Of a DNA stretch of 60,694 nt, positions 553 through 57,690 are shown one piece after another. The stretch's first letter is position 1; each line of letters begins with the position of its first letter. The stretch comes from Pseudomonadota bacterium (GTDB taxonomy: Bacteria > Pseudomonadota > Gammaproteobacteria > Burkholderiales > Burkholderiaceae_C). Position numbers and translations under genes: made by a program. The notes below the pieces were generated by a model. It ran no database searches. It was not told the origin of the DNA and saw only the letters and a program-made list of their open reading frames with translations. Where the stretch lies: the NCBI GenBank assembly GCA_020161215.1, contig JAIUOM010000008.1, positions 1 to 60,694 on the forward strand. The letters are read 5' to 3'.

Positions 553-1743
553 TCAGCCCGCCAGCCGGTCGGCCGCGCGCACCGCCGTGGCGCGCGCGCG
601 CGCATCCAACGCCAGCAGGGCCTCCAGGTTGTCTGGGGCGTCCGCGGGCACGCTGTCCAGCGTGGCGCGGTTGACCTGGTGGATCTGGTCGAAGCGGATA
701 CGGCGCTCCAGAAAGGCCGCCACCGCCACTTCATTGGCGGCGTTCAGCACCGCACAGGTGCCGGGCGCGGCGCGCAGCGACTCCCAGGCCAGCGCCAGAC
801 CCGGGTAGCGCGCACGGTGCGCGGCGCTGTCGATGGGCTCGAAGGTCAGGTCCTGCAGGGCGTGGAAATCCAGCGCCGCGGCGCCCGAGGCGATGCGTTC
901 GGGCCAAGCCAGGCCGTAGGCGATGGGCACGCGCATGTCGGGCGTGCCCAGTTGGGCCACCACCGAGGTGTCGCGGTACTGGACCATGGAATGGATCACG
1001 CTTTGCGGGTGCAGCACCACGTCGAGCTGGTCGGGCGCCACGCCGAACAGGTAGCGCGCCTCGATCACCTCCAGCGCCTTGTTCATCATGGTCGCCGAAT
1101 CGACCGAAATCTTGCGGCCCATCACCCAGTTCGGGTGCGCGCAGGCCTGCTCGGGGCTGACCTCGCCCAGCGTGGCCGGATCGCGCGTGCGAAACGGCCC
1201 GCCCGAGGCGGTGAGGATGATCTTGTCGATGCGCGCCGCCCAGGTGGCCGGGTCCTCGGGCAGCGACTGAAAAATGGCCGAATGCTCGCTGTCGATGGGC
1301 AGCAACGTGGCGCCGCCCTCGCGCACGGCGCGCAGGAACACCTCGCCGCCCACCACCAGGGCTTCCTTGTTGGCCAGCAACAGGCGCTTGCCGGCGCGCG
1401 CCGCGGCCAGGCAGGGCGCCAGGCCGGCGGCGCCGACGATGGCCGCCATGACGGTATCGACGGCGCTGTTGGATGCTATCTTTTCAAGAGCATCCTTGGA
1501 TGTATCCACGCCGACATCCAGGCCTTTTTCCTTGATTTTTCGGGCCAGTTCGGCGGCGTGCGGGGCGCTGGCCATGACCACCACGCGCGGACGAAACCGC
1601 TCGCACTGCGCCAGCATCAGATCGACCTGGGTGGCGGCGGTGAGCGCCACCACCTCGAAACGCTCCGGATGCCGTGCCACCACGTCGAGGGTGTTGGTGC
1701 CGATGGAGCCCGTGGAGCCCAGCACCGCCAGTCGCTGCTTCAT
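553..1743 (-). CDS. dxr (ispC): 1-deoxy-D-xylulose 5-phosphate reductoisomerase
   Basis: It converts DXP to MEP with NADPH, the committed step of the MEP isoprenoid pathway. The 396-residue protein starts with the NADPH-binding motif LGSTGSIG and has the catalytic-site segments LPIDSEHSA, ASGGPFR and VDSATMMNKALEVIEARYLF. The start ATG at 1743 overlaps the cdsA stop by four bases (ATGA), so translation is probably coupled. Around residues 68-90 the DNA becomes AT-rich and matches the dispersed short repeat described elsewhere here (1475-1540). That stretch encodes a lysine-rich segment containing LDVGVDTSKDALEKIAS, just before the conserved VMAAIVG. Confidence 0.96.
   Translation of the reverse strand: MKQRLAVLGSTGSIGTNTLDVVARHPERFEVVALTAATQVDLMLAQCERFRPRVVVMASAPHAAELARKIKEKGLDVGVDTSKDALEKIASNSAVDTVMAAIVGAAGLAPCLAAARAGKRLLLANKEALVVGGEVFLRAVREGGATLLPIDSEHSAIFQSLPEDPATWAARIDKIILTASGGPFRTRDPATLGEVSPEQACAHPNWVMGRKISVDSATMMNKALEVIEARYLFGVAPDQLDVVLHPQSVIHSMVQYRDTSVVAQLGTPDMRVPIAYGLAWPERIASGAAALDFHALQDLTFEPIDSAAHRARYPGLALAWESLRAAPGTCAVLNAANEVAVAAFLERRIRFDQIHQVNRATLDSVPADAPDNLEALLALDARARATAVRAADRLAG
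1475..1540 (-). repeat. AT-rich dispersed repeat (copy a), inside ispC
   Basis: Read on the minus strand, it has the core GTCGGCGTGGATACATCC followed by AGATAGC, matching copy l (GTCGGCGTGGGTACATCC) at 15 or more contiguous positions. It lies in frame in ispC in the sense orientation and is much less GC-rich than the gene around it. Confidence 0.6.
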
Positions 1744-2606
1744 GTGCCCGCCACCCCGCTCCAGCTCACCAGCGCCATGGCCAGCGGCAAGGTCGGCAGC
1801 AGCGCATCGATGCGATCCAGCACGCCGCCGTGTCCGGGCAGCAATTGGCTGGAATCCTTCATGCCGGCGCTGCGCTTGATCAGGGATTCGAACAAATCGC
1901 CCACCACGCTCATGGCGGCCAGGAACAGCGCGCCCAGCACCAGCAGCGGCCAACCGCCCTGCGCCAGGCGCGTGTACAGGCTGTCGCTGGCGGGTGCCTG
2001 GGCGCGGTCGAAGGCGATCCACAGCAGCGCCACCAGCAGCACGCCCAGCATGCCGCCCCACACACCCTCCCAGCTCTTGCCGGGGCTGATGCCCGGCGCC
2101 AGCTTGCGCCCGCCGGTCAGCTTGCCGCCCAGGGCGCGGCCGGCGAAGTACGCGAACACGTCGGCCGCCCACACCAGCACCAGCGTGGACAGCAAAAAAT
2201 TGACCCCGATGCGGCGCGCCTGGGCCATCGCCAGCCAGGCCAGCACCAACGCCACCACGCCGATCAGCCAGCGCAGCGCGCGCGGCCACAGCGGCCAGCC
2301 GGCCACGCCACGCCGCAGCATGGCGGCCCCGCCCAGCACCCACAGCAGCGCCGCCGCCAGCCACAGCCACGGCAAGGGCCGCTGCACCGCCCCACCCAGC
2401 CACAGCCCGGCGCAGAGCACGGCGCACAGCAGGCCGGTGAGCAGCGCCCCGGTGCCGGGCACGCCGTTCAGCCGTGCCCATTCCCAGGCCGCGGCGGCAA
2501 TGAACAGCAGGGTCAAGGCGATGAAGGGCGCTGGCGAGGCGGCAAACAGCGCCGGCAGCAAGATCGCCAGCAGCACCAGGGCGGTGATGACACGTTGCTT
2601 GAGCAT
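1740..2606 (-). CDS. cdsA: Phosphatidate cytidylyltransferase (CDP-diacylglycerol synthase)
   Basis: This inner-membrane enzyme makes CDP-diacylglycerol from phosphatidate and CTP, the entry to all membrane phospholipids. The 288-residue product is almost entirely hydrophobic, with about eight membrane helices. Near the C-terminus it carries the family signature SLIKRSAGMKDSSQLLPGHG followed by GVLDRIDAL, with the conserved KD and HGG-DR-D residues. It begins 15 bases after uppS and overlaps ispC by four bases, so the three look like one transcription unit. Confidence 0.96.
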   Translation of the reverse strand: MLKQRVITALVLLAILLPALFAASPAPFIALTLLFIAAAAWEWARLNGVPGTGALLTGLLCAVLCAGLWLGGAVQRPLPWLWLAAALLWVLGGAAMLRRGVAGWPLWPRALRWLIGVVALVLAWLAMAQARRIGVNFLLSTLVLVWAADVFAYFAGRALGGKLTGGRKLAPGISPGKSWEGVWGGMLGVLLVALLWIAFDRAQAPASDSLYTRLAQGGWPLLVLGALFLAAMSVVGDLFESLIKRSAGMKDSSQLLPGHGGVLDRIDALLPTLPLAMALVSWSGVAGT

Positions 2607-2621
2607 CTTGTCGGCCTCCCG

Positions 2622-3353
2622 TCAGCCCGTCGCCCGGACGAGCTGCTCGGAGGTCTGGCCAAAGCGCCGCTCGCGCGCCGCGAACGCGGCCAGGGCCTGG
2701 TCCAGCGCCGCCTCGTCAAAGTCGGGCCACAGGCGCTCGCTGAAGAACAGTTCGCTGTAGGCGCATTGCCACAGCAGGAAGTTGCTGATGCGCTGCTCGC
2801 CGCCGGTGCGAATCAGCAGATCCGGATCGGGCACGTGGGCCAGCGCCATGGCGCGGTCGAGCGCCAGCTCGGTGATCGGCTCACCGCGCGCCGCCAGGCC
2901 CGCCGCCGCCTGGGCGATATCCCAGCGGCCGCCGTAGTTGAAGCACACGTTGAGCACCAGGCGCTCGTTGTGCGCCGTGTCGGCCTCGGCCTGGGCCAGA
3001 CCCTGGCGCATGCGCTCCGACAGGCCCTGACGGTCCCCCACGAAATACAGGCGCACGCCACTTTGGCTCAGCTCGGGCACCTCGCGCGTGAGCGCCTTGC
3101 CCAGCAGCTCCATCAGGCCGCTGACTTCCTCGGGGGGGCGGTTCCAGTTCTCGGACGAGAAGGCAAACACTGTCAGCACGCGCACGCCGCGTTGCACGCA
3201 AGCGCGGATGCAGCGGCGCAGCGATTCGACGCCCTGCCGATGGCCGGCGATGCGCGGCATCAGCCGGCGCTTGGCCCAGCGGCCGTTGCCGTCCATGACG
3301 ATGGCGACGTGGTAGGGCGCCACCGGCGCCATCGGAGAAGGTGCAGAGGCCAT
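2622..3353 (-). CDS. uppS (ispU): Di-trans,poly-cis-decaprenylcistransferase (undecaprenyl diphosphate synthase)
   Basis: It condenses eight IPP units onto FPP to make the C55 lipid carrier of peptidoglycan and O-antigen synthesis. The cytosolic cis-prenyltransferase fold is shown by HVAIVMDGNGRWAKRR with catalytic Asp21, then FAFSSENWNRP, and the C-terminal DLLIRTGGEQRISNFLLWQ. The length of 243 residues is normal. An in-frame ATG seven codons in (3332) is an alternative start. It sits between frr and cdsA in the standard order. Confidence 0.96.
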   Translation of the reverse strand: MASAPSPMAPVAPYHVAIVMDGNGRWAKRRLMPRIAGHRQGVESLRRCIRACVQRGVRVLTVFAFSSENWNRPPEEVSGLMELLGKALTREVPELSQSGVRLYFVGDRQGLSERMRQGLAQAEADTAHNERLVLNVCFNYGGRWDIAQAAAGLAARGEPITELALDRAMALAHVPDPDLLIRTGGEQRISNFLLWQCAYSELFFSERLWPDFDEAALDQALAAFAARERRFGQTSEQLVRATG

Positions 3354-3397
3354 GCGCGGCGCGAGAAAGCCAGGGGTCGAGGGCGGAACGCAGCGCC

Positions 3398-3958
3398 TCA
3401 GACCTCCATGATGTCCTTTTCCTTGCCGGTCACCAGGGTGTCGATCTCGGCGATGTGCTTGTCGGTGGCTTTCTGGGTCTCGGCCTCGGCGCGTTTCTGA
3501 TCGTCCTCGGACGCTTCCTTGTCCTTGACCAACTTCTTGATGGCGTCGTTGGCGTCGCGGCGCAGGTTGCGGATGGCGACCTTGGCCTGCTCGCCCTCGT
3601 GGCGCACCAGCTTGGTCATCTCCTTGCGGCGCTCCTCGCTCATGGGCGGCATCGGCACGCGGATCAGATCGCCCATGTTGGCCGGGTTCAGCCCCAGATC
3701 GCTTTCGCGGATGGCCTTCTCGATCTTGGCGCCCATGCCCTTTTCCCAGGGCTGCACGCTGATGGTGCGGGCGTCCAGCAGCGACACGTTGGCCACCTGC
3801 GACAGGGGCACGTGGTTGCCGTAGTACTCGACGTGGATGGTGTCCAGCAGGGCCGGGTTGGCGCGGCCGGTGCGGATCTTGGTCAGGTTGTTCTTGAACG
3901 CGGCGATGGACTGGTCCATCTTGGCCTGGGCGTTCGTCTTGATGTCGGCAATGGTCAT
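3398..3958 (-). CDS. frr: Ribosome recycling factor
   Basis: It splits post-termination ribosomes together with EF-G. The 186-residue length is exact for the family. It contains the [11 protein letters not shown] segment and the C-terminal arm with [30 protein letters not shown] stretch just before the ATG supplies a Shine-Dalgarno sequence. It lies 91 bases downstream of pyrH. Confidence 0.97.
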
Positions 3959-4049
3959 GTCAATATCTCCTGCAACCCGCTATTTTGCGCCTTGCCATGC
4001 GGGGTTGGGCGGCGGGCCTTGGCGGGCGCGCTCCGGTCAACGGCGGTGC

Positions 4050-4772
4050 TCAGGCGTGGACCAGCGTGCCCTCGTCGGCACCCTGCACCACGGCCTTGAG
4101 GGCGCCGGGCTTGAAGATCGAGAACACCCGGATCGGCAGCTTCTGGTCTCGGCACAGCGCAAAAGCCGTGGCGTCCATGATGCCCAGGTTGCGCGTCATG
4201 GCCTCGTCGAAGCTGAGCTGGGTGTAGCGGGTGGCCTTGGGGTCTTTCTTGGGATCGGCCGTGTACACGCCATCGACCTTGGTGGCCTTGAGCACCAGCT
4301 CGGCACCGATCTCGGCGCCACGCAGCGCGGCGGCGGTGTCGGTGGTGAAGAAGGGGTTGCCGGTGCCGGCGGCGAACACCACCACCTTGCCCTCTTCCAG
4401 GTACTGCAGCGCCTTGGGCCGCACGTAGGGCTCGACCACCTGCTCGATGGAAATGGCCGACATCACGCGCGCCGTCAGCTTCTGCTGGTTCATGGCGTCG
4501 GCCAGGGCCAGCGCGTTCATCACGGTGGCCAGCATGCCCATGTAGTCGGCGGTGGCGCGGTCCATGCCGACCGAGCCGCCGGCCACGCCGCGAAAGATGT
4601 TGCCGCCGCCGATGACCACCGCCACCTGCACCCCCATGCGCGTGACGTCGGCGATCTCGCCCACGATGCGCTCGATGGTCGCCCGGTTGATACCGAACGC
4701 ATCGTCACCCATCAACGCCTCACCGGAGAGTTTCAGCAAAATGCGTTTGTGGGCGGGCTTGGGTTTGGTCAT
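4050..4772 (-). CDS. pyrH: UMP kinase
   Basis: This amino-acid-kinase-fold enzyme phosphorylates UMP to UDP and is the hexameric bacterial type. The 240 residues include [11 protein letters not shown] at the phosphate-binding N-terminus, [11 protein letters not shown], and the late [18 protein letters not shown] segment of the nucleotide site. It lies between tsf (77 bases upstream) and frr. Confidence 0.97.
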
Positions 4773-4850
4773 GGGCGTTGGGGTTTTCGATGAATCCTGA
4801 AAGTTTAGCGGCGCGCCGGCACGCGCGGCCGGCGCGGCGATGAAGAGGCT

Positions 4851-5744
4851 TCAGTCCTTCTTCTGCGCGGCGGCCACCTGGGCAGCCACTTCGGCGGCGA
4901 AATCGTCGGCCTTCTTCTCGATGCCCTCGCCCACCACGTACAGGGTGAACCCCGTCACCTTGGTGTTCTTTTCCTTCAGCATCTGCTCGACGGTCTGCTT
5001 GTCGTTCTTGACGAAGGGCTGATTGAACAGCGACACCTCTTTCAGGTACTTCTGCACCGAGCCTTCGATCATCTTGGCCGCGATGTCGGCCGGCTTGCCC
5101 GATTCCTGGGCCTTGGCGGTGGCGACGCTGCGCTCGCGCTCAATCAGCTCGGCGGGCACATCGGCGCTGGTCAGGGCCACCGGCTTCATGGCGGCCACGT
5201 GCATGGCGACGTCGCGGGCAGCGGCTTCGTCGCCCTCGTACTCGACCAGCACGCCGATGCGGGTGCCGTGCAGGTAGCTGGTCAGCTTGGCGCCGCCCGA
5301 CTTGCGCACGAAGCGGCGGAAGCTCATGTTCTCGCCGATCTTGCCGATCAGGCCCTTGCGCACGTCTTCCAGCGTGGGGCCGTAGCCGTCCTGCTCGTAG
5401 GCCAGCGCGGCCATGGCGGTAACGTCGGCGGGGTTATTCTCGGCCACCAGCTTGGCGGTGGCGGCGGCCAAGTTCAGGAACATTTCGTTCTTGGTCACGA
5501 AGTCGGTTTCGCAGTTGACTTCGACCACGGCGCCGACGTCGCCGGCGATGTGAGCGGTGATCACGCCTTCGGCGGTGACCCGGCTGGCGGCCTTGCCGGC
5601 CTTGGTACCCAGCTTGACGCGCAGGATTTCCTCGGCCTTGGCCATGTCGCCCTCGGCTTCGGTCAGGGCTTTCTTGCACTCCATCATGGGCGCGTCGGTC
5701 TTGGCGCGCAGTTCGGCGACCATGCTTGCGGTGATAGCTGCCAT
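4851..5744 (-). CDS. tsf: Translation elongation factor Ts
   Basis: It is the guanine nucleotide exchange factor for EF-Tu. The 297-residue protein begins [13 protein letters not shown] and has the [12 protein letters not shown] signature plus the coiled-coil and dimerisation region characteristic of EF-Ts. ATG at 5744 was chosen because GGAGAATTT is placed just before it; the reading frame also allows a TTG two codons upstream, which is less likely. It follows rpsB after a 104-base gap that contains an intrinsic terminator. Confidence 0.97.
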
Positions 5745-5800
5745 CTTCAAATTCTCCGGATTTCTGTGTTCAGTTCAGTGCCCAGATCGGGCGGTGATGG

Positions 5801-5823
5801 AAAAAAGGGGCCTTGACGCCCCC
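5801..5823 (-). terminator. Intrinsic terminator between rpsB and tsf
   Basis: Read on the minus strand, GGGGC, a six-base loop and GCCCC form a perfect GC stem followed immediately by six T. It lies after the rpsB stop and before tsf, so it probably makes part of the transcripts rpsB-only. Confidence 0.75.
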
Positions 5824-5848
5824 TTCTTTCGGATCGCGGCGAGGGCGA

Positions 5849-6598
5849 TCAGGACTCCTGGACCTCGACGAACTCGTCGTCGCCCTCGGCGGCGGCCACG
5901 GCCTTGACCACGTCATTGACGGCATTGGCCTTGCCTTCCAGCACGGCATCGGCCATGCCTTGGGCGTACAGCAGCACGGCCTTGGCCGAGTCGTCGTTGC
6001 CGGGGATCACGTAGTCGATGCCTTCCGGGTTGTGGTTGGAGTCGACCACACCGATCAGCGGAATGCCGAGCTTCTTGGCTTCGGCCACGGCGATCTTGTG
6101 GTAACCCACGTCGATCACGAAGATGGCATCGGGCAGCGCGCCCATGTCCTGGATGCCGCCGATGTCGCGCTCCAGCTTGGCCATCTCGCGGCTGAACATG
6201 AGCTGCTCTTTCTTGCTCATGCTCTCCAGGCCGGCTTCCTGCTGGGCCTTCATGTCCTTCAGGCGCTTGAGCGAGGTCTTGACGGTCTTGAAGTTGGTCA
6301 GCATGCCGCCCAGCCAGCGCTGTTCGACGAAAGGCATGCCGGCGCGGCGGGCTTCCTCGGCCACGATCTCGCGCGCCTGGCGCTTGGTGCCCACGAACAG
6401 GATGGTGCCGCGGTTGGCCGCCAATTGCTTGGCGAACTTCTGCGCGTCCTGGAACATCGGCAACGATTTTTCCAGGTTGATGATGTGGATTTTGTTGCGA
6501 TGGCCGAAGATAAAGGGGGCCATCTTGGGGTTCCAGAAGCGCGTTTGGTGGCCAAAGTGCACACCAGCTTCCAGCATTTGACGCATGGTCACGGACAT
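5849..6598 (-). CDS. rpsB: 30S ribosomal protein S2
   Basis: This small-subunit ribosomal protein is 249 residues long, starting [18 protein letters not shown]. It contains the S2 signatures [18 protein letters not shown] and, near residue 205, [23 protein letters not shown]. The start at 6598 is chosen over an upstream in-frame extension because AAGGAA lies seven bases before it and it matches the usual S2 N-terminus. The acidic tail ([12 protein letters not shown]) is usual in this group. Confidence 0.97.
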
Positions 6599-6802
6599 GG
6601 GAAGTTCCTTGTCAAGGTTGGGTCTAAAATTCGGCCCGCTGATCGCCACTCCAGGGCCTGTTGCTCAGGCTGGGGACGACACCTCGTAGGGGCCGGTTTG
6701 CGATTTGTCTTGCGCGGCAACCAGGCGCCCAATTAGCGCCCTGCCAACAGCAAAACCCAAAGATTTTAGCATGGCCCGGGTGGGCCTTTCCGTGCCTCCT
6801 TC

Positions 6803-8053
6803 ATGAACATCGCGATTCTCGGCGCCGGCATCATCGGCGTGACCACGGCCTACGAGTTGGCCGCCGACGGGCACCAGGTCACCGTGTTCGAGCGCCACGC
6901 CACCGTGGCCGAGGGCGCCAGCTTCGCCAACGCCGGCGTGGTGGCGCCCGGCTACGTCACGCCCTGGGCCGCGCCAGGCATGCCCAGCAAGGTGCTGCGC
7001 CACCTGGTGTCGCGCCACGCCCCGGTGCGCGTGAGCCGCCCGCTGGCCATGGCCGATCTGGCCTGGATGCGGCAGTGGCTGCGTGCCTGCGATCCGGCCA
7101 GCTACGCCGCCAACCGCGCGCGCATGCAGCGCCTGGCCTTCTACAGCCGCCAGCGCCTGCACGAGGTGGCCGCGCGCATGGCCTACGATTTCGAGCGCAG
7201 CGACGGCTACCTGGTGCTGTTGCGCGCCGAAAAAGACCGCCGCCTGGCCCAGCCCGGCCTGGCGCTGCTGCGCGAGCTGGGCGTGCGCTTTCACGAAGTA
7301 ACGGCCGAGGAGGCGCGCCAGATCGAGCCGGCGCTGAACCCCGACACCGCCCTGGCCGGCGCCATCCACCTGCCGCAGGACGAAGTCGGCAACTGCCGCC
7401 AGTTCGTCGTCATTGCCCGCGACGCGGCCGAGAGCCTGGGCGCACGCTTCATGTTCAATGCGCCCGTTGCCCGCATCGACACCTCTCATGGCGCTACTGT
7501 TCATATAGCAAATGAATCGCTTCCGCGGCGCTTCGACGCCCTCGTCGTGTGCGCCGGCGTGCAGTCGGCGGAGTTGCTCAAACCCCTGGGCATCGCCCTG
7601 CCGCTGCGGCCCGTGTACGGCTACTCAATCAGCGCCCACATTCCCGAGCCGACCAACGCCCCGCGCAGCGGCGTGATGGACGAGCGCTTCAAGGTCGCCA
7701 TCACGCGCATGGGCCAGCGCGTGCGCGTGGCCGGCTCGGCCGAGATCGGCGGGCGCCCGGGGCAGATCCACGAACAAGCCGTGCAGACCTTGTACAAGGT
7801 GCTGTCCGACTGGTTCCCCGCCGCCGGGCGCCTGTCCAGCGGGGTGCAGGTGTGGAAAGGCGCGCGCCCCATGCTGCCCGACGGCCCGCCCATTCTCGGC
7901 GCCAGCGGCATCCCCGGTCTGTGGTTGAACCTGGGGCATGGCTCCAGCGGCTGGGCGCTGTCCTGTGGATCGGCCCGGGTGCTGGCCGATCAAATGGCCG
8001 GTCGCCAGCCGGCCATCGACGTCGAGGGACTGGGCATCGAGCGGCTGCGCTGA
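6803..8053 (+). CDS. dadA: D-amino acid dehydrogenase (DadA-type FAD oxidoreductase)
   Basis: This membrane-associated flavoprotein deaminates D-amino acids and passes electrons to the respiratory chain. The 416-residue protein opens with the FAD Rossmann motif GAGIIG (residues 7-12). It continues with the DadA-typical ASFANAGVVAPGYVTPWAAPGMP and ends with the C-terminal flavin-site segment LWLNLGHGSSGWALSCGS. It is divergent from rpsB with a 204-base gap and has no alanine racemase gene next to it. A short AT-rich patch near 7491-7520 resembles part of the dispersed repeat but does not clearly lengthen the protein. Confidence 0.9.
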   Translation: MNIAILGAGIIGVTTAYELAADGHQVTVFERHATVAEGASFANAGVVAPGYVTPWAAPGMPSKVLRHLVSRHAPVRVSRPLAMADLAWMRQWLRACDPASYAANRARMQRLAFYSRQRLHEVAARMAYDFERSDGYLVLLRAEKDRRLAQPGLALLRELGVRFHEVTAEEARQIEPALNPDTALAGAIHLPQDEVGNCRQFVVIARDAAESLGARFMFNAPVARIDTSHGATVHIANESLPRRFDALVVCAGVQSAELLKPLGIALPLRPVYGYSISAHIPEPTNAPRSGVMDERFKVAITRMGQRVRVAGSAEIGGRPGQIHEQAVQTLYKVLSDWFPAAGRLSSGVQVWKGARPMLPDGPPILGASGIPGLWLNLGHGSSGWALSCGSARVLADQMAGRQPAIDVEGLGIERLR

Positions 8054-8080: not shown

Positions 8081-8130
8081 TCCTGATTTGATAGCATAAA
8101 ATCGTTTACACACGCCGACAAACGGCTTAT
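8081..8130 (-). repeat. AT-rich dispersed repeat (copy c), between dadA and the NAD(P)HX repair gene
   Basis: On the minus strand it has TTGTCGGCGTG, then an AT-rich spacer and GCTATCAAATCAGGATT. The end GCTATCAAATCAGGATTTT recurs in copy d. It fills most of the gap between the two genes. Confidence 0.6.
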
Positions 8131-8177
8131 TTCTTCACTATCCCGGGATCAACGGCGGCCCGACGCACAATGTGCCC

Positions 8178-9740
8178 ATGCCACAAGCCGTCGATCTTGC
8201 CCGCGCCCTCCCGCTGTTCGGTGTGGCCGCCACGCGCGGCACCGAGCAGGCCGCCGCCGTCGCGCTGCCGCCCCACACGCTGATGCGACGCGCGGGTCTG
8301 GCCACGGCCCGGCTGGCGCTGGCCCTGGCGCCACATGCGCGCCAGGTCTGGATCGCCTGCGGCCCCGGCAACAACGGCGGCGATGGGCTCGAAGCGGCCA
8401 TGCACCTGCGGGCCTGGGGTCTGAACCCGGTCGTGACCTGGTTGGGCCAGCCGGACCGGGCGCCGGCCGATGCGCTGGCGTCCTGGAAACGCGCCGTGGC
8501 GGCCGGCGTGTGCTTTGCCGACGCCCCCCCCGAAGCGCTCGACACGCAGGACCTGTACATCGACGCCCTGCTGGGCATCGGCGCCGCCCGCGCGCCCAGC
8601 GGCCGGTTGGCCGAGTGGCTGGCGCGGCTGCGCGCCAGCCCCGCCACCCTGCTGGCGGTGGACCTGCCAAGCGGCCTGGATGCCGACACCGGCGTGCTGG
8701 CCGCGCCCGCCACGGCCAGCAAAAATCCTGATTTGATAGCAGCTCAGAAAATACCCACGCCGGCCAATGCCCATTTTTCCTCCAAATCACGCCCCACAGG
8801 ACCGCGCCACACCCTGAGCCTACTGACCCTCAAGCCCGGCCTGTTCACCGCCGACGGGCGCGACGCCTGCGGCCGGCTCTGGTTCGACGACCTGGGCGTG
8901 GCCGCCGATCTGGTGGCCGCGCCGCCGCGGGCCTGGCTGAACCCCGCGCCGATCAGCACCCACCGCGCCCACGCCAGCCACAAGGGCAGCTACGGCGACG
9001 TGGCGGTGCTCGGCGGCGAAGGTCTGCTGGCGCGCGGCCTGGGCATGACCGGCGCGGCCTTGCTGGCCGGTTCGGCCGCGCTGCATGGCGGCGCCGGTCG
9101 GGTGCTGGTCGCGCTGCTGGACGGCGGTGCGTTGGCTCAGGACACGGTGCGGCCGGAACTGATGCTGCGCCGCCCCGAGGCGCTGGCGCTGGACACGCTC
9201 ACCGTGGTCTGTGGCTGCGGCGGCGGCCAGGCCGTGCGCGCCTGGTTGCCAGCGGTGCTGGCGCAGGCGCCGTGCCTGGTGCTGGACGCCGACGCGCTGA
9301 ACGCGCTGGCCGAGGCCCCCCCCGCGCAGGCGGCGCTGCGCCAGCGCGCGGCGGCCGGTCATGGCACCGTGCTGACGCCCCATCCGCTGGAGGCCGGGCG
9401 CCTGCTGGCCACCAGCGCGGCCGAGATCCAGCAAGACCGCCTGGCCGCCGCCCACGCGCTGGCCGAGCGCTTTCAGTGCGCGGTCGTGCTCAAGGGCTCA
9501 GGCACCGTGATCGCCGCGCCCGGCATGGCGCCGCGCATCAACCCGACCGGCAACGCCCGCCTGGCCACCGCCGGCACCGGCGACGTGCTGGCCGGGCTGA
9601 TCGGGGCCCGCTTGGCCGCCGGCCTGCCGCCCTTCGAGGCCGCCTGCGCGGCGGTGTTTCAGCATGGGAGCGTCGCTGATAGATGGGCGGCATCCGGCGC
9701 GCTGACCGCCGATCAACTGGCGCGAGCGTTGAGCACGTGA
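8178..9740 (+). CDS. nnr: Bifunctional NAD(P)H-hydrate epimerase / ADP-dependent NAD(P)H-hydrate dehydratase
   Basis: It repairs hydrated NADH and NADPH. The N-terminal YjeF_N epimerase domain has CGPGNNGGDG near residue 60 and VDLPSGLDADTG. The C-terminal carbohydrate-kinase-like dehydratase has LTPHPLEAGRL and the GTGDVLAG nucleotide-binding motif. ATG 8178 is used; GTG 8172 is an equally framed option. The unusual point is a block of about 30 residues (starting SKNPDLIAAQKIPTPAN) between VDLPSGLDADTGVLAAPATA and HTLSLLTLKPGLFT, which I recall as near-contiguous in other members. It is encoded by repeat copy d. Confidence 0.93.
   Translation: MPQAVDLARALPLFGVAATRGTEQAAAVALPPHTLMRRAGLATARLALALAPHARQVWIACGPGNNGGDGLEAAMHLRAWGLNPVVTWLGQPDRAPADALASWKRAVAAGVCFADAPPEALDTQDLYIDALLGIGAARAPSGRLAEWLARLRASPATLLAVDLPSGLDADTGVLAAPATASKNPDLIAAQKIPTPANAHFSSKSRPTGPRHTLSLLTLKPGLFTADGRDACGRLWFDDLGVAADLVAAPPRAWLNPAPISTHRAHASHKGSYGDVAVLGGEGLLARGLGMTGAALLAGSAALHGGAGRVLVALLDGGALAQDTVRPELMLRRPEALALDTLTVVCGCGGGQAVRAWLPAVLAQAPCLVLDADALNALAEAPPAQAALRQRAAAGHGTVLTPHPLEAGRLLATSAAEIQQDRLAAAHALAERFQCAVVLKGSGTVIAAPGMAPRINPTGNARLATAGTGDVLAGLIGARLAAGLPPFEAACAAVFQHGSVADRWAASGALTADQLARALST
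8721..8788 (-). repeat. AT-rich dispersed repeat (copy d), in frame inside nnr
   Basis: On the minus strand it reads TTGGCCGGCGTGGGTATTTT, CTGAGCTGCTATCAAATCAGG and AAAAT ends. In the gene it is antisense and in frame, and it encodes the peptide core LIAAQKIPTPAN. Copy f in rimO encodes a related IAAQ...TPT peptide in the same frame and orientation. Confidence 0.7.
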
Positions 9741-17688: not shown

Positions 17689-19941
17689 TCACTTGCGGCG
17701 GCTTTTGCGCGGCTTGGCCGCCGACCGGTTGGCGCCCCCGCCGCGCTGGCCAGGGGCGGTCTGGCGCGCGGACGAACGCTCTGGCGTCCTGGGCTCCTCG
17801 CCGTGCGCCGGCACGGCCTGGCCCCGCTGGCCCGCGCCGCCGCCGCGGCTTTTGCGCGAACCGGTGGTGGACCCGCCCTGCCCCTTGTCGGCCATGGCCC
17901 GGCCCAGCAGTTCCTCGCCCTCGCGCACCAGGCGGAAGTCGATCTTGCGGCCATCCAGGTCGACCCGGCTGACCTGCACGCGCACGCGCGTGCCCAGGGC
18001 GTAGCGGATGCCGGTGCGCTCGCCGCGCAGTTCCTGGCGCAGTTCGTCGAAACGGAAATACTCGCCGCCCAGCTCGGTGATGTGCACCAGACCCTCGACG
18101 TGCAGCTCATCCAGCGTGACGAACAGGCCGAAGCTGGTCGCCGCGCTGACGGTGCCGGCGAACTCCTCGCCCAGGTGCTCCTTCATGTACTTGCACTTGA
18201 GCCAGGCCTCGACGTCGCGGCTGGCCTCGTCGGCCCGGCGTTCGTTGGCGCTGCAATGCAGGCCGGCGGCCTGCCAGGCCTGCAGCTCGGCCGAGAGCTT
18301 TTTCGGGCGGATGTCGGCGTCGGAACTTCTTGAGGCGCTATTCTTTTGCAAGCGACGCTGGAGTTTTTCGTGCGCTTCACCGGGCGTCGGCAACTCCGGC
18401 AAGCGGTATTTGCGCTGCGCCAGGATGGCCTTGATGACGCGGTGCACCAGCAGATCGGGGTAGCGCCGGATCGGGCTGGTGAAATGCGTGTAGGCCTCGT
18501 AGGCCAGGCCGAAGTGGCCGCTGTTGACGGGGGTGTAGATGGCCTGGCTCATGGAGCGCAGCAGCATCATGTGGATTTGCTGGGCGTCGGGTCGCTCGCG
18601 CGTGGCCTCGGCGATGCGCTGGAACTCTCCCGGTGCGGGGGTCTCGCTGATCGACAGTCCCAGGCCCAGCGCCTTCAGGTAGCCGCGCAGGATGTCCTGC
18701 TTCTCGGGCGTCGGGCCCTCGTGCACGCGGTACAGGCCCGGCTGCCCGCCTTGCTGAATGAAGTCGGCGCTGCACACGTTGGCGGCCAGCATGCACTCCT
18801 CGATCAGCCGGTGCGCGTCGTTGCGCGTGCGCGGCACGATCTTTTCGATGCGGCCGGCCTCGTCGCAGACGATCTGGGTCTCGGTGGTGTCGAAATCGAC
18901 CGCGCCACGCACCGCGCGCGCCTTCAGCAGGGCGTGGTACACATCGTGCAGGTGGATCAGGTCCGGCACCCGCTCCTTGCGCCGCGCCGCCTCGGGCCCA
19001 CGCGTGTTGGCCAGGATCGCCGCCACCTCGGTGTAGGTGAAGCGCGCGTGGCTGTGCATCACGGCCGGGTAGAACTGGTAGGCCACCACCTCGCCCTTGG
19101 CCGACACCAGCATGTCGCACACCATGCACAGGCGGTCCACGTCGGGGTTGAGCGAGCACAGGCCGTTGCTGAGCTTCTCGGGCAGCATGGGGATGACGCG
19201 GCGCGGAAAGTACACGCTGGTGGCACGGTCGTAGGCGTCGATGTCGATCGAGCTGCCGGTGCGCACGTAGTGGCTGACGTCGGCGATGGCCACCAGCAGG
19301 CGCCAGCCGTTGGGCTTCTTGCCGCGGCCGTTGACCACCGAGGGCTCGCAGTACACCGCGTCGTCGAAATCGCGCGCGTCCTCGCCGTCGATGGTGACCA
19401 GGGGCACGTCGGTCAGATCGACACGGCCGGGCCGGTCTTCCGGGCGCACCTGCTCGGGCAGCGCGCGCGCCTCGCCGATGGCGGCCTCGGAAAATTCGTG
19501 CGGCACGCCGTACTTGCGCACCGCGATCTCGATCTCCATGCCGGCGTCGTCGATCTCGCCCAGCACTTCCTTCACGCGCCCGACCGGCTGGCCGTACAGC
19601 GCCGGCGGCTCGGTCAGCTCGACCACCACCACCTGGCCGGGCTTGGCGGCGCCAAAGCCGGCCTTCGGGATCAACACGTCCTGGCCGTAACGCTTGTCCT
19701 CCGGCGCCACCAACCAGACCCCGCCCTCGTTGAGCAAGCGCCCGATGATCGGGTGCGGCGGCCGCTCGACGATTTCCAACACGCGCCCCTCGGGCCGGCC
19801 ACGCCGGTCCTGGCGCACCACGCGCACCTTGACACGGTCGCGGTGCAGCACCGCGCGCATCTCGTTGGGCGGCAGGTAAATATCGGCGTCGCCGTCGTCG
19901 CGCGCCACGAAACCGTGGCCGTCGCGGTGCCCTTGCACCAC
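17689..19941 (-). CDS. rnr: Ribonuclease R
   Basis: This 3'-to-5' exoribonuclease degrades structured RNA. The roughly 750-residue product has the cold-shock-like N-terminal part (GHRDGHGFVARDD), the RNB catalytic centre TIDGEDARDFDDAVYCE near residue 190, a C-terminal S1 domain (FAGTVSAATSFGLFVTL) and a basic tail. GTG 19941 is the first usable start. The frame stays open upstream (residues NLLEEIEGV) without an ATG, GTG or TTG, so the true start is uncertain. At about residue 535 a QKNSASRSSDADIRPKK segment coincides with repeat copy e. Confidence 0.94.
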   Translation of the reverse strand: MVQGHRDGHGFVARDDGDADIYLPPNEMRAVLHRDRVKVRVVRQDRRGRPEGRVLEIVERPPHPIIGRLLNEGGVWLVAPEDKRYGQDVLIPKAGFGAAKPGQVVVVELTEPPALYGQPVGRVKEVLGEIDDAGMEIEIAVRKYGVPHEFSEAAIGEARALPEQVRPEDRPGRVDLTDVPLVTIDGEDARDFDDAVYCEPSVVNGRGKKPNGWRLLVAIADVSHYVRTGSSIDIDAYDRATSVYFPRRVIPMLPEKLSNGLCSLNPDVDRLCMVCDMLVSAKGEVVAYQFYPAVMHSHARFTYTEVAAILANTRGPEAARRKERVPDLIHLHDVYHALLKARAVRGAVDFDTTETQIVCDEAGRIEKIVPRTRNDAHRLIEECMLAANVCSADFIQQGGQPGLYRVHEGPTPEKQDILRGYLKALGLGLSISETPAPGEFQRIAEATRERPDAQQIHMMLLRSMSQAIYTPVNSGHFGLAYEAYTHFTSPIRRYPDLLVHRVIKAILAQRKYRLPELPTPGEAHEKLQRRLQKNSASRSSDADIRPKKLSAELQAWQAAGLHCSANERRADEASRDVEAWLKCKYMKEHLGEEFAGTVSAATSFGLFVTLDELHVEGLVHITELGGEYFRFDELRQELRGERTGIRYALGTRVRVQVSRVDLDGRKIDFRLVREGEELLGRAMADKGQGGSTTGSRKSRGGGAGQRGQAVPAHGEEPRTPERSSARQTAPGQRGGGANRSAAKPRKSRRK
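18310..18352 (+). repeat. AT-rich dispersed repeat (copy e), in frame inside rnr
   Basis: The plus-strand sequence has GGATGTCGGCGT, then CTTGAGGCGCTATTCTTTTG, a degenerate match to copy f (GGATGTCGGCGTGG, CTGAGCAGCTATCGTTTTTG). It lies antisense in rnr in a different frame from copies d and f, between the RNB and S1 domains. Confidence 0.5.
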
Positions 19942-25685: not shown

Positions 25686-25815
25686 GGCCTGGCGGGACAA
25701 GGATGAAGAAAAAATCATTCAGTGGCCAGCGCACGCACGCCGCCGGCGCTCCGTCATCCTAATGGAAAGCGCCGGTCGACCGCGTTCACCGACACCCCAT
25801 CGGGGCCGAAGTGAC

Positions 25816-30900: not shown

Positions 30901-30962
30901 CTTCAAAAATAATAGCTATTGGCGCTGATTGCACCAGCGCAAGGGCCATATTTTGCTTGAAG
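30901..30962 (-). repeat. AT-rich dispersed repeat, variant type (copy i)
   Basis: On the minus strand AAAATATGGCCCTTGCGCTG is followed by AATAGCTATTATTTTTGAAG. The last 15 bases (AGCTATTATTTTTGAAG) are identical to copy j. The variant shares the AGCTATT end with the main family but lacks the GTCGGCGTGG core. Confidence 0.55.
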
Positions 30963-33457: not shown

Positions 33458-33519
33458 TTCAATGCCATATTGGCCGCTGACGCTCGTAAATATAGCGCGG
33501 ACAGCTATTATTTTTGAAG
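33458..33519 (+). repeat. AT-rich dispersed repeat, variant type (copy j)
   Basis: TCAATGCCATATTGGCCGC, a TATAGCGC segment and ACAGCTATTATTTTTGAAG. It resembles copy i in inverted orientation, and the two bracket the molybdopterin gene about 2.5 kb apart. Confidence 0.5.
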
Positions 33520-33659
33520 CATCCATCCAGCCAGATCCACCGCAGCGCTTGCACCCGGGCGCGCCTGCCCCCATCTCCCTAGAATTACAGGCTTTCACCC
33601 CCCGTCCTCAGCCGGCCGGGGGTTTTCGTCGTTTTTCGCGCCTGCCCGACCCCGTCACC

Positions 33660-39537: not shown

Positions 39538-39580
39538 GCGCCGAGGCGGGCCTCTGGTCGGGGTTTTGGGGTGTTTTGGG

Positions 39581-39628
39581 GCATTGGTCGGCGTGAAATA
39601 TAAGGTTTATGCTTTTATTTCGATAGCG
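39581..39628 (+). repeat. AT-rich dispersed repeat (copy k)
   Basis: GCATTGGTCGGCGTGAAATA, then TTATGCTTTTATTTCGATAGC. The first part matches copies g and d (GCATTGG(C/T)CGGCGTG). It lies just after the HpaB-family gene. Confidence 0.55.
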
Positions 39629-39677: not shown

Positions 39678-40355
39678 ATGCCCCGCCCGACCTCCACGCA
39701 TCGCCTGGCGCGCCTCTTGGCGCTGGCCTGGCTGCTGGTCTGCTCGGCGGCCGCCGCCCAGGCGCTTGACGCCGCCGCGCCCGGCCAGCGCCTGCAAGGC
39801 CTGCTGGGCACCGCCGCCCAGGCCCCACCCGCCGAAGTGATCCGGCTGGCCGCCCAGGTGGTCGCCAGCGGGGATGCGCGCGGGCGCGCCTACGCGGTGA
39901 TCGACAAGCGCGCGGCGCGGCTGTGGGTGTTCGACCCCAGCGGGCAGCCGCTGGCCGACAGCCCGGTCCTCGTCGGCCAGGCCACCGGCGACGTGGCGCC
40001 GCCCGACATCGGGACGCGCCCGCTCCGCCAGGTGCGGGCGCACGAGAAGATCACCCCGGCCGGCCGCTTCGACACCGAGCCGGGCGAGAACCTGCGCGGC
40101 GAGGACATCGTCTGGCTCGACTACGACAGCGCCCTGTCGCTGCACCGCGTGCGCGACGTGCCGGGCGAGGGGCGCCCGGCCCGCATCGGCGCGAACGACG
40201 CGCGCCGCCGCCGCATCTCGTACGGCTGCGTGAACGTGCCGGCCGGTTTTTACGACCGCCACATCCAGCCCTGGTTCGCCCGGCAGGCCGGCGTGGTCTA
40301 CATCCTGCCCGAGACGCTGCCGCTGGCGCGGGTGTTTGGCTTCGCGCCCGATTAG
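39678..40355 (+). CDS. L,D-transpeptidase (YkuD family), periplasmic
   Basis: The secreted 225-residue protein has a signal peptide (ALAWLLVCSAAAAQA), then a YkuD domain with DYDSALSLHRVRDVPG and the active-site RRRRISYGCVNVPAGFYD, catalytic Cys184. It probably cross-links or modifies peptidoglycan. ATG 39678 begins the signal peptide; a longer frame starts at 39630. The stop TAG lies in the left arm of the composite palindrome that follows. Confidence 0.85.
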   Translation: MPRPTSTHRLARLLALAWLLVCSAAAAQALDAAAPGQRLQGLLGTAAQAPPAEVIRLAAQVVASGDARGRAYAVIDKRAARLWVFDPSGQPLADSPVLVGQATGDVAPPDIGTRPLRQVRAHEKITPAGRFDTEPGENLRGEDIVWLDYDSALSLHRVRDVPGEGRPARIGANDARRRRISYGCVNVPAGFYDRHIQPWFARQAGVVYILPETLPLARVFGFAPD

Positions 40356-40622
40356 GGCCTCTTAACGCTATTTTCCGGCCTGCGAACCTGCTCAAAAAAG
40401 CGTCAATCTAGGCGTGCGACGCAGTCCAGACCGAGTGTCTGGGCAAGGAGCACAACAACGAGTGACGCTTTTTTGAGCAGGTTCCCTATGGGTTGCGATC
40501 AAAAAGGCCATCGCCGGCGTTGCCAACCTTGCCAAGGCACCTACCTTGGCTGCGGCTGGCGCCTTGGCGAGTGGCCTTTTTGACTCGCAACGCACGCCGG
40601 AAAATAGCGTTAACAGGCCCTA
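40353..40622. repeat. Composite palindromic element, 270 bp, between two convergent genes
   Basis: Outer arms of 27 bases (40353-40379 and 40596-40622) are inverted repeats with one mismatch and carry CTTAACGCTATTTTCCGG on the left. Inside, a perfect 22-base inverted repeat (40384-40405 and 40463-40484, with CTCAAAAAAGCGTC) encloses a 57-base loop that has its own six-base hairpin. A second structure (GTTGCGATCAAAAAGGCCA against TGGCCTTTTTGACTCGCAAC) encloses further nested hairpins. The outer arms begin and end with the TAG stop codons of both neighbours. It could act as a bidirectional terminator or be a MITE-like element. Confidence 0.8.
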
Positions 40623-42218: not shown

Positions 42219-42320
42219 GCGGGCGAACAGGGCAAGGAAAGGGAAGGAGCCAGTCCGCAGTGTAGAACGCGAGGCGGCTCCCACGCCACACCGGCCCTCG
42301 CGCCATCACTTTCGAGCCTT

Positions 42321-42374
42321 TCAGGCCTTCGGTCGGCGTGGGTACATCCTGAGCAGCTATCTATTTGATAGTTC
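42321..42374 (+). repeat. AT-rich dispersed repeat (copy l)
   Basis: GGTCGGCGTGGGTACATCCT, then GAGCAGCTATCTATTTGATAG. It is the best complete example of the family and lies between the two convergent-side flanks of the PhoD and oxidoreductase genes. Confidence 0.75.
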
Positions 42375-43123: not shown

Positions 43124-43729
43124 GTGTCAAGTTCAACCGATTCCGAACGCCCCTACCACCACGGCAACCTGCGCCAGGCCTTGCTGGACGCCGCCTTCGA
43201 GCTGCTGGCCACGCGGCCCGCGGCCCAGCTCAGCCTGCGCGAGGTGGCCCGCGCCGCGGGCGTCAGCCACGCCGCGCCCTACCATTACTTCGCCGACCGC
43301 GACAGCTTGCTGAAGGCCGTCAGCACCGAGTGCCTGCGGCGCTTTCTGGGCGCGCAGCAAGACGCCGTGGCGCGCGCCACGGCGCCGCGCGAGCGGCTGC
43401 TGGCGCTGGGCCTGGCCTACGTGGGCTTTGCGCACCAGCAGCCGAACGCCTTTGCCCTGGTGTTCGACGCCCAGCTCTGCCCGCCCGGCCAGCCCAACGC
43501 CGAATCGGCGCCGCTGATCGCCGCCAACGAGGCGCTGCTGCGCGACTGCGTGACGGCGCTGCGGCCCACCGACGGCCCGCCCGACGCAAGCGGCGACGCG
43601 CTGGGCGCCGCGCTGTGGGGCACGGTGCACGGCCTGGCGCAACTGGTGATGGGCGGCCACCTGCCCATGGACGGCGTGGCGCCAGCGCTGCGCGCGCTGC
43701 TCGGCCAAGGTACTTTGGATAGGGCTTGA
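43124..43729 (+). CDS. TetR-family transcriptional regulator
   Basis: The 201-residue regulator has the helix-turn-helix LSLREVARAAGVSHAAPYHYF at about 35-55 and a WHG-type C-terminal domain (ALWGTVHGLAQLVMGG). It begins with GTG at 43124 (TAGAAT lies eight bases upstream as a -10 candidate). It is divergent from the quinone-type oxidoreductase, which it likely represses. Its stop is followed one base later by repeat copy m. Confidence 0.82.
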   Translation: MSSSTDSERPYHHGNLRQALLDAAFELLATRPAAQLSLREVARAAGVSHAAPYHYFADRDSLLKAVSTECLRRFLGAQQDAVARATAPRERLLALGLAYVGFAHQQPNAFALVFDAQLCPPGQPNAESAPLIAANEALLRDCVTALRPTDGPPDASGDALGAALWGTVHGLAQLVMGGHLPMDGVAPALRALLGQGTLDRA

Positions 43730-43730
43730 T

Positions 43731-43783
43731 TCAGGCACTGGCCGGCGTGGGGCAATCCTGAGCAGCTATTTTATTGAGAGCAT
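43731..43783 (+). repeat. AT-rich dispersed repeat (copy m)
   Basis: TGGCCGGCGTGGGGCAATCC, then TGAGCAGCTATTTTATTGAG. It follows the TetR stop directly and precedes the serine hydrolase gene. Confidence 0.75.
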
Positions 43784-44980: not shown

Positions 44981-45020
44981 GCCAGTCAATCAAGCCTGAA
45001 CAGCTCCCATATCAATAGCA
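44981..45020 (+). repeat. AT-rich dispersed repeat (copy n), touching the serB start
   Basis: AAGCCTGAACAGCTCCCATATCAATAGC is a degenerate copy of the CCTGAGCAGCTAT ... TGATAGC part. It ends one base before the ATG of serB, so it forms the gene's leader. Confidence 0.45.
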
Positions 45021-52207: not shown

Positions 52208-52221
52208 GTTACACGCTCCGG

Positions 52222-53298: not shown

Positions 53299-53307
53299 GT
53301 CGGGGCC

Positions 53308-55128: not shown

Positions 55129-55171
55129 GCCTGGACACGGTTGTTGTTCCACGCGGGTCAGTGTCGCTTTA

Positions 55172-55199
55172 ATTTCACCAAGCAAACACTTGGTGAAAT
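55172..55199 (+). promoter_or_regulatory. Palindromic operator upstream of the thiolase gene
   Basis: ATTTCACCAAG and CTTGGTGAAAT are a perfect 11-base inverted repeat with a six-base spacer, close before a TATACT (-10-like, 55203-55208) and 55 bases before the thiolase ATG. There is no T-run, so a regulator site is more likely than a terminator. Confidence 0.55.
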
Positions 55200-55253
55200 C
55201 CCTATACTTGAAACCCAGTGTCACGCGGCCACGGGTGCCGCCAGGAGAGCACC

Positions 55254-56817: not shown

Positions 56818-57600
56818 ATGACCACCTCTGCCCGCACCGCCTCAACCCGGCTTTCACGCCTGGCCCTTCTCACCCGCGCCTGTAGCCTGACCTTGGCCCT
56901 TGGCCTGGCCGCCTGCGGCGGCGGTGGCGACAACACCGACACCCCGGTCAACCCACCGCCGCCACCGCCACCGCCGCCGCCCGTAGCCCAGGTCACCGCC
57001 CCGGCGCTGCAAGGCGCTTGGCGTGATGCCAGCTCCTCGGCCCTGCTGATTGCCGGTGCCAGCCCCAGTCAGGCCAGCGTTTGGTGGTTGGAGGCCCAGC
57101 GCCTGACCAAGCTGGCGCTGAGCGTGGCCACCGACGGCACGCTGCAGGCCCAGGGCCGGGCCTTCCCGCTGACCGGCGGCCCCGCCCAGAACGTCACCTA
57201 CGGCGGCAGCGCCAGCCTGAACCCGGCCAGCCTGAGTCTGAACAGCCAGCCACTGACCCCCGCCAGCCTGCCGACGAGCATCGATGTCGGCGCTCTGGCT
57301 GGCGCCTGGCATTCCTTGAGCGGCAACGGCGCCATCCGGGTCAACTGGAGCTTGGCGACCAGCGGCGCGCTGGCCGGCAGCGCCAGCACCGGCTGCACCT
57401 ACGCCGGCCAGCTCGGCGCCCACCCCGGCCTGGGCGTGCTCGACGCCACGCTCAGCGAAACCTGCCCCGGCAGCCCAAGCCAGATGCTCAGCGGCGTGGG
57501 CAGCGTGCAGGGCAGCGGCGCCGCGGCGCGCCTGAACCTGCTGCTGACCACCACCGGCGACGCCGCCGCCCTGGTGCTGGCGCTGCAGCCGGGGGCTTGA
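56818..57600 (+). CDS. Putative lipoprotein with a polyproline linker
   Basis: The 260-residue protein has a lipoprotein signal with lipobox LAAC (Cys33), then GGGG and ten consecutive prolines, then a Ser/Gly/Ala-rich domain with no family I recognise (LQGAWRDASSSALLIAGASP). Two Cys (TGCTYAG; SETCPG) could form a disulfide. It is likely anchored in the outer membrane. It precedes the large DUF4347 protein, but 274 bases with a repeat separate them. Confidence 0.7.
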   Translation: MTTSARTASTRLSRLALLTRACSLTLALGLAACGGGGDNTDTPVNPPPPPPPPPPVAQVTAPALQGAWRDASSSALLIAGASPSQASVWWLEAQRLTKLALSVATDGTLQAQGRAFPLTGGPAQNVTYGGSASLNPASLSLNSQPLTPASLPTSIDVGALAGAWHSLSGNGAIRVNWSLATSGALAGSASTGCTYAGQLGAHPGLGVLDATLSETCPGSPSQMLSGVGSVQGSGAAARLNLLLTTTGDAAALVLALQPGA

Positions 57601-57625
57601 GTCGGCGCCCTCGTTGGGCGCCATG

Positions 57626-57690
57626 GATTGCGATCAAAACAGGCCTTGGCCGGCGCCCAATCATCCTGGGTAGCTCTCAAAACAGAAGCA
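57626..57690 (+). repeat. AT-rich dispersed repeat (copy o), degenerate
   Basis: TTGCGATCAAAACAGGCCTT, then GGCCGGCGCCCAATCATCCT and GTAGCTCTCAAAAC. The start TTGCGATCAAAA also occurs in the composite palindrome at about 40493-40504. Confidence 0.45.

Follow-up and report, generated by a model that had tools for sequence, protein, structure and literature searches.

We analysed a 60,694-nucleotide stretch of contig JAIUOM010000008.1 (assembly GCA_020161215.1), called the window throughout, together with a short repeat that is scattered through it between genes and in frame within them. The repeat consists of two arms around a 25-base core. At 12 loci, comparison with orthologous sites of the same genus showed that the core matches the dialect common to one species' copies, whereas the arms keep a locus-specific history. 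In what follows, the home species and the home genome are the ones analysed, G-numbers denote the other genomes compared, and L-numbers denote stretches of DNA. The home genome is a draft assembly (98.1% complete, 2.95% contamination) whose 250 contigs add up to 4.52 Mb, and the closest RimO proteins in named records belong to Comamonadaceae and other Burkholderiales.

Members of the repeat family in the window

Copies were sought with the pattern GGYCGGCGTGG-N5-TCCTGAGCAGCTATC, allowing up to three mismatches and using the reversed pattern as a control; with R1, a sequence-only model made from 30 home copies; and with a genus-wide profile, whose rows were dropped if E exceeded 0.01 or if they did not span the full 63 bases (196 of 237 were kept). 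The original prediction, which was made from the letters of the window, had pointed to 13 places and had described a dispersed repeat in both orientations. By R1 and the genus-wide profile together, all 13 places are members of one family, of unequal strength, and they do lie in both orientations:

1476..1538, minus strand: element in frame in dxr (gene 553-1743, minus strand; Pfam DXP reductoisomerase); weak R1 match over model positions 5-42
8106..8136, minus strand: half copy (left arm and left core) between the genes ending at 8053 and starting at 8178; R1 E = 0.012, positions 8-38 only
8725..8787, minus strand: element in frame in the NAD(P)HX epimerase/dehydratase gene (8178-9740, plus strand; Pfam YjeF_N and Carb_kinase); R1 54.6 bits
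18290..18352, plus strand: element in frame in rnr, encoding RNase R (17689-19941, minus strand; Pfam RNB); R1 18 bits
21306..21368, plus strand: element in frame in rimO (20200-21621, minus strand; Pfam Radical_SAM, UPF0004 and TRAM_2); R1 42.5 bits
25814..25869, minus strand: intergenic element; R1 31.9 bits
30901..30963, minus strand: intergenic element with the sister-species core type GGCGCT..AGCGC; genus-wide profile, 63-bp extent presumed
33458..33520, plus strand: intergenic element with the sister-species core type; genus-wide profile, 63-bp extent presumed
39564..39626, plus strand: intergenic half copy (left arm and left core); R1 17.3 bits over positions 2-37, full extent presumed
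42310..42373, plus strand: intergenic element, the best in the window; R1 55.7 bits, exact pattern match
43721..43782, plus strand: element overlapping the end of an open reading frame (ORF) called to 43729; R1 48.9 bits
44965..45027, plus strand: diverged intergenic element, missed by R1; genus-wide profile only, 63-bp extent presumed
57627..57690, plus strand: intergenic element; R1 39.1 bits

R1 recovered 10 of the 11 main sites in the window, five of them at E < 1e-9 (42310, 8726, 43721, 21306 and 57627) and the one at 25814 at 5e-8. The R1 matches at 1498, 18296, 39564 and 8106 were weak (E 0.0004 to 0.012), and those at 1498, 39564 and 8106 covered the model only partly. The genus-wide profile added the copy at 44981 and the variants at 30901 and 33458; those at 8106 and 39564 were not on its list. 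A search of the window with Rfam at gathering scores returned two tRNAs only.

The weakest members in the window are those at 8106, 39564 and 44965, and weak single copies of this kind are what chance similarity, contamination or misalignment might produce. For the family as a whole we regard such an artefact as extremely improbable. The 31-base pattern matched the genome at 58 sites and its reversed control matched at none, so the copies exceed the level expected by chance, and the dialect signal described below is the same in several of the genomes and across the loci that were compared. When the pattern was given a 7-base spacer, with the spacing off by one base, no matches were obtained. 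The 13-base word by itself says little about the window: it has 21 matches where 15.4 are expected, and 6 of 100 shuffles reach 21. R1 matched 150 of the 150 candidates scored, with E ≤ 1.4e-7 among the matches listed.

In 580.7 kb of the home genome, window included, R1 found 77 places at E ≤ 1, of which the weakest few may be chance; this sample consisted partly of contigs chosen as known holders of copies. Six stretches taken blind gave 10 R1 matches in 120 kb. These counts suggest a whole-genome total of about 375 to 600 copies in 4.52 Mb, and the density first proposed, one copy per 4-5 kb, was too high. The unit had been described as AT-rich and 45-70 bp long. It measured 63 bp, and its mean GC content over 103 home copies was 47.7%, against 68.5% for the window.

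Anatomy of the element

When 30 copies were aligned without gaps on the pattern, conservation started sharply at TT and ended after AGC; positions fixed by the pattern look conserved in this alignment through copy selection. The layout is a left arm, TT..GAGnCAAAAnnGGC, followed by the 25-base core and a right arm, AGCTATCaattn.gAG. Consensus sequences of several species were aligned on AGCTAT. The arms agreed between species, whereas the cores differed:

Home species, consensus core: GGcCGGCGTggA.a.AtCCtGAg
G013, consensus core: GCGCTTG.C.G.CAAGCGCgAG
G019, consensus core: GGCCCTAgagCag.cTGCGCgG
G010, consensus core: AGCGC.cGc.g.ACCAGCGCtGG

The congener core forms a GCGC..GCGC dyad, which is lost in the home species. 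The paired columns of this dyad showed no covariation in 97 congener copies (0.773 against 0.781 in shuffled data), and the same was true of the loose GGATnnATCC of the home species (0.371 against 0.379). RNAalifold found only three pairs in 30 home copies, all of them invariant and without covariation. A hairpin structure was rejected on the basis of the RNAalifold and dyad results. Columns 10-13 hold an A-tract or a T-tract, either way, which is the pattern to be expected if the shape of duplex DNA were preferred.

Distribution and species dialects

The home pattern was found in 1 of 28 congeners (a single site with three mismatches, in G018) and in none of 31 more distant relatives. In the congeners the 63-bp frame is kept, with a different core inside it. 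The exact signature GCGCNNGCAGCTAT occurred 81 to 500 times per genome in 15 of the 28 congeners, at most 38 times in the other 13 and eight times in the home genome; reversed controls gave 0 to 2 per genome. Among 250 genomes of the bacterial family, four of them from this genus and the home genome included, 174 had at least one match and 38 had at least 30. Small counts in this survey are meaningless, because the control reached 8 in one genome. Relatives of the repeat do occur across the family, in line with the original prediction. Several genera contained a rich genome next to a near-empty one, and in other genera every sampled member was rich. The RimO loci of 80 GTDB records yielded five elements at three loci (L141, L151 and L152), and phage records yielded one match to the repeat.

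Leave-one-out assignment among six species was right for 145 of 191 cores and for 63 of 191 arms. When the sets were balanced at 11 copies per species, the right fraction was 0.64 for cores (0.16 shuffled) and 0.19 for arms (0.15 shuffled). A genome-wide motif with species dialects, a feature like that of uptake sequences, is thus present. The open-access literature was searched by words, a blunt method, and no description of the repeat family or of its dialects was found among the titles and abstract openings listed.

Two copies in G005 (L268 12287-12348 and L272 13329-13390) share a further core, AAGTCCTAGTG, which is possibly a further dialect; no match to the repetitive extragenic palindromic (REP)-associated tyrosine transposase (RAYT) was found in this genome. 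Stretch L120 of G013 (about 1393-7550) holds several near-identical copies within about 6 kb, one pair being identical over 63 bp, and this looks like local duplication.

The core is rewritten in place and the arms are kept

At each of the 12 loci, same-genus orthologues hold an element at the same place, with arms that are locus-specific and matching and with a different core. The first eight loci are rimO, dxr, the NAD(P)HX gene, rnr, L081:132, L081:3262, L078:408 and L078:14802. The other four are an acyl-CoA dehydrogenase gene, the 3' end of another acyl-CoA dehydrogenase-like gene, selB and L072:14982; the acyl-CoA dehydrogenases and selB were named by reading translations, with no family search behind them. 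Rows with more than four gaps inside the element were excluded from the comparisons. Locus L081:19430 was excluded before counting, as its spacer was not alignable. The G010 stretch L274 was left out.

In rimO, the home element encodes a loop of 21 residues. Twenty-four loci of the genus were compared, the home one included. Thirteen of the 23 congener loci have a loop of the same length with GAKTIA at one end and another middle, nine have a loop shorter by 5 to 12 residues, and one has a longer loop. The DNA of the differing middles is mostly of the congener core type. The dxr element has the home-species core, with a weaker right half, and other cores stand at this site in G013, G010 and G023. 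Other cores are also found in congeners at the NAD(P)HX site, where G007 is without most of the element.

Between home and congener copies at the same locus, the cores were 0.347 identical (86 pairs) and the arms 0.635. At different loci the corresponding values were 0.346 (946 pairs) and 0.457, and between home copies of different loci they were 0.576 (66 pairs) and 0.50. The core at the 12 loci is without detectable locus ancestry, whereas the arms retain theirs. A weaker contrast was seen with G019, whose dialect played no part in the choice of sites: at 10 loci, its cores were 0.505 identical at the same locus, 0.458 at other loci and 0.574 within G019, and its arms were 0.64, 0.453 and 0.484, respectively. 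All 12 loci were picked from home elements, and a start from the congener side served as a control for that choice. Thirty congener elements could be placed in the home sample. The home state was A-type for 17 of them, which fall at nine loci, and B-type for one, at one locus.

Concerted evolution is usually a feature of repeats that are long or clustered. Here it affects short single copies scattered over a genome, leaves their flanks out and extends into coding sequence: the encoded peptides shift dialect too, for example from IAAGAGATSAGG in G010 to IAIQDDSTPADG in the home species. With many related genomes that have or lack each site, the family offers a natural experiment on dialect switching of a genome-wide motif.

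Insertion and placement in genes

In the acyl-CoA dehydrogenase gene, the site measured 103 nt in G011 and G004, 106 nt in G002 and 133 nt in the home genome; the other nine congeners had 133 or 142 nt, some with a degenerate element. No elements were found in the samples of G011 and G004 (80 and 20 kb). At L081:3262, G022 had 98 nt, against 140-143 nt. Related genomes without the family have shorter sites, which supports an insertion of the elements before the species of the clade diverged, at intergenic sites and at tolerated in-frame sites in genes. Uptake sequence sites generally arise by substitution without added length; the present family does not fit this, its empty sites being 27-45 nt shorter. 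G016 and G020 were compared as a close pair that might show clean insertion boundaries; in the sequence sampled, they had only a 12.7-kb stretch in common, at 97%, and it contained no insertion or deletion of at least 15 nt.

Placement was scored against gene calls from a home-made caller, whose starts are approximate. Nineteen of 76 home copies lie inside genes, seven overlap an end and 50 are intergenic; the in-gene probability of a random 43-mer is 0.83. In four genomes, 39 of 48 in-gene copies are confined to two frames out of six (antisense phase 1 with 26 copies and sense phase 1 with 13), these counts being not independent because orthologous sites of several genomes are included. Stop codons account for this bias only partly: sense phase 2 is free of stops in 56 of 99 intergenic copies, yet it is used by 2 of 48 in-gene copies.

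The original prediction had compared the family to Rickettsia palindromic elements, which spread into coding sequence, and had counted at least four in-frame copies in housekeeping genes. Those four are real, in dxr, the NAD(P)HX repair gene, rnr and rimO, and in-frame presence in protein genes is a likeness to the Rickettsia elements as described (PMC3733652). The share of copies inside called genes and their use of two frames would also agree with a repeat recently inserted into coding sequence in the home species. However, at dxr, the NAD(P)HX gene, rnr, rimO and the eight further loci, orthologous genes already hold the element at the same position. Fresh insertion is ruled out for these 12 loci; it could hold elsewhere, and as an account of the family it seems very unlikely to us. 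Orthologues with the segment at the same sites were among the outcomes that the original prediction had named as refuting it; this outcome was found in part, within the genus and with different peptides. The idea of peptide-coding insertions stands as regards the in-frame peptides and the shorter sites in some relatives, but not as regards recent additions in the home species, in which the novelty is the core and not the insertion. Old shared sites with rewritten cores set the family apart from the Rickettsia elements (PMC3733652).

Relations among copies and a possible reader of the core

Column linkage among the 103 home copies was mostly local, with a mean z of 0.13 and 0.04 between arms and core and of 0.00 between the arms. 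Against an order-2 Markov null, 146 shared runs of at least 16 nt were found where 108 were expected, and 18 of at least 20 nt where 15 were expected. Whole-element identity reached at least 0.75 in 20 pairs, against 4.7 under a first-order null. The best pair of the 103 was 0.83 identical, and one identical pair was seen in G013. Since arm-core linkage is slight, stem pairs do not covary and shared blocks are near the null, most copies behave almost like independent draws from a motif, perhaps with some block copying.

The core was rewritten across a species' copies and the arms were spared, and therefore something that reads the core is needed. Insertion alone would be insufficient, because inserted copies would diverge independently at each site. 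Our preferred reading, to which we give a probability of about 45%, is that the element is an old insertion and that its core stays in step with a DNA-reading partner specific to the species, much as in the dialects of DNA uptake sequences. The core would be read by a sequence-specific DNA-binding partner that differs from species to species, and recombination-linked drive would favour, base by base, the copies best suited to the partner of the moment. The most likely form of such a partner system would be an uptake or self-recognition signal. Fragments with better-matching sites would preferentially be taken up or recombined, which would spread the signal, and inside genes the same process would overwrite tolerant protein loops.

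In Neisseriaceae, DNA uptake sequence dialects vary between species, and the cognate receptor is the proposed reader (PMC3630211). The likeness to that system lies in species variants of a genome-wide motif. The difference is that the present element is 63 bp long and apparently inserted, and an uptake role would be attributed to it by analogy. More tentatively, the family may be a genome-wide self-recognition code of Comamonadaceae, made of 63-bp sites that were inserted and that have their core rewritten where they stand, at hundreds of loci and in essential enzymes too, with each change of the reading protein. The repeat would then record partner switches and drive concerted protein change at many unlinked genes.

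Several points weigh against the preferred reading. No partner protein was found, and no search was aimed at competence genes. To our knowledge, known uptake signals are shorter and are not known to arise by insertion, and drive over hundreds of sites would require many substitutions. The length difference at element-free sites is not 63 nt and the boundaries are not clean; therefore, exact junctions are unreadable, and deletion is possible at some sites. The congener cores at the rnr site differ, are themselves weak and fit no dialect well. With profiles trained elsewhere, the right species was named at the first eight loci for 26 of 40 cores, against 11 of 40 arms; the home cores were right in eight of eight cases, but these were chosen ones. 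The start from the congener side also gave five sites scored as "absent" and seven as "neither" in the home genome, although misalignment of an A-type site lies behind at least one "neither" (G010 L127:18769) and one "absent" site (G010 L276:4057) shows an A-type core. Another pairing axis in the home copies reached a z of 2.7 over four pairs. Within-core pairs of columns more than two apart had a mean z of 0.72, against 0.35 and 0.30 inside the arms. Shared blocks of at least 26 nt joined four pairs, where 1.1 were expected and the maximum in 20 simulations was 3. Most long blocks come from the trio L022, L005 and L070, which share 27-36 nt and have different arms; this looks like block copying.

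The trio, like the conservation of the arms around a replaced core, would suit plain gene conversion between copies, in which the arms serve as short homology and the cores are homogenised with no dedicated partner. The title of a 1988 review reportedly asked whether REPs evolve by gene conversion. Two features make this improbable as the general explanation: there is little long-range linkage among core positions, and about 20 imperfect bases of arm are short for RecA recombination. Conversion alone would also leave near-invariant core positions beside free ones unexplained, though the copies concerned were picked by a pattern that fixes these positions.

A transposase as the alternative partner

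The main rival to a species-specific reader treats the elements as non-autonomous partners of a RAYT, whose shifting specificity would exchange the cores by cleavage and strand transfer. The home genome has a RAYT-like gene (Y1_Tnp, 3.4e-10; NCBIfam REP_Tyr_transpos, 49.1 bits, below the cut-off of 80, with a fragment scanned). RAYT matches were found in 23 of 29 genomes, the home genome included, and a close orthologue in 12 of 15 element-rich congeners. Since the 19 closest congener matches are 51-71% identical, against 70-91% for RimO, RAYT evolves faster. Against this account, RAYT is present and elements are lacking in the samples of G011, G004, G001, G012, G008 and G006 (one match in 186 kb together). 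Moreover, RAYT was not found in the element-rich G015 (86% complete), and only distant matches (38-40%) were found in G016 and G020.

Element-like sequence lies directly 3' of the RAYT stop codon in the home genome, G018, G019, G009, G013 and G010. It is strong in G018, G019 and G010 and weak by profile in the home genome (E 0.25) and in G013 (E 0.21). The flanks of the gene hold one weak element, on the 3' side, in the home genome, and elements on both sides in G018 and G010, inverted only in G018. This adjacency counts once, because at least 13 genomes have inherited the same RAYT locus, with a shared downstream gene, and an element at a 3' end is common anyway (66 of 941 genes). GTGG, a known REP head, stands at core columns 29-32 in 45 of 103 home copies, but few congener cores (11 of 114) have GTGG or GTAG. 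Neither the congener dyad nor the home GGATnnATCC covaries, and near-identical copies are almost absent, unlike in REPs.

RAYT-associated REPs are described as palindromic, and a genome holds tens to hundreds of identical ones (37-427 perfect copies in the Stenotrophomonas cases; PMC2817692). Many identical copies of this kind were not found among the 103 home copies, nor was a palindromic hairpin whose head is a conserved GT(A/G)G found by RNAalifold, covariation and GTGG counts. Set beside REP/REPIN-RAYT systems (PMC2817692, PMC8049555, PMC8266576), the family is alike in its hundreds of short dispersed copies, mostly intergenic, in the fast-evolving RAYT-like gene and in the GTGG of the home cores. 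It is unlike them in having no covarying hairpin, few near-identical copies and one degenerate element at one flank of the home RAYT. We consider the exchange of cores by a RAYT unlikely.

The flanks of the RAYT-like gene (L032 / L239, contig C137) hold GGGGTCAGA and TGTCCCC motifs in many congeners. As a dispersed repeat, GGGGTCAGA was rejected, with two occurrences in 580.7 kb. A second Y1_Tnp gene lies at L031 1501-1863 (contig C35; E 7.6e-38, 150-aa frame), with a partial element nearby (L031 1945-1995).

Another short repeat, the beta-proteobacterial repeat element (BRE), resembles the present one in that it also occurs in Comamonadaceae and has some copies in coding sequence (PMC3110155). 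Its description gives 75-91 bp, about 69% GC and a tandem arrangement at some loci. By that description BRE is ruled out, the present element being 63 bp long and ungapped, of 47.7% GC and dispersed (PMC3110155).

An element inside a resistance integron cassette

A consensus of the congener type matched 1750 of 72,556 plasmid records. Among the 15 plasmid matches listed, 12 cover query positions 14-53, and the other three are Comamonadaceae plasmids. Eleven of these 12 lie in a DUF1010 ORF and one in a hypothetical protein. In pCTX-M3 (L382 699-989), the DUF1010 ORF stands between dfrA12 and aadA2. The genus-wide profile matched this ORF over model positions 2-63 (E 8e-11), and the encoded protein matched PF06231 with 109.7 bits from residue 31 on, where the element begins. 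On the basis of these two matches, the cassette holds a Comamonadaceae-type element, which suggests that the DUF1010 cassette came from a Comamonadaceae host. When eight translated element copies were compared with DUF1010, one gave a sub-threshold match (15.5 bits, E 0.024) and seven gave none. A widespread chromosomal repeat of Comamonadaceae is in this way linked to a common resistance integron cassette.

Other features of the window

An inverted repeat of 49 nt, 82% complementary and with a 172-nt spacer, lies at 40353-40622. Near the end of the window, positions 59041-59421 hold a long, low-complexity, GC-rich repeat that looks like coding sequence.

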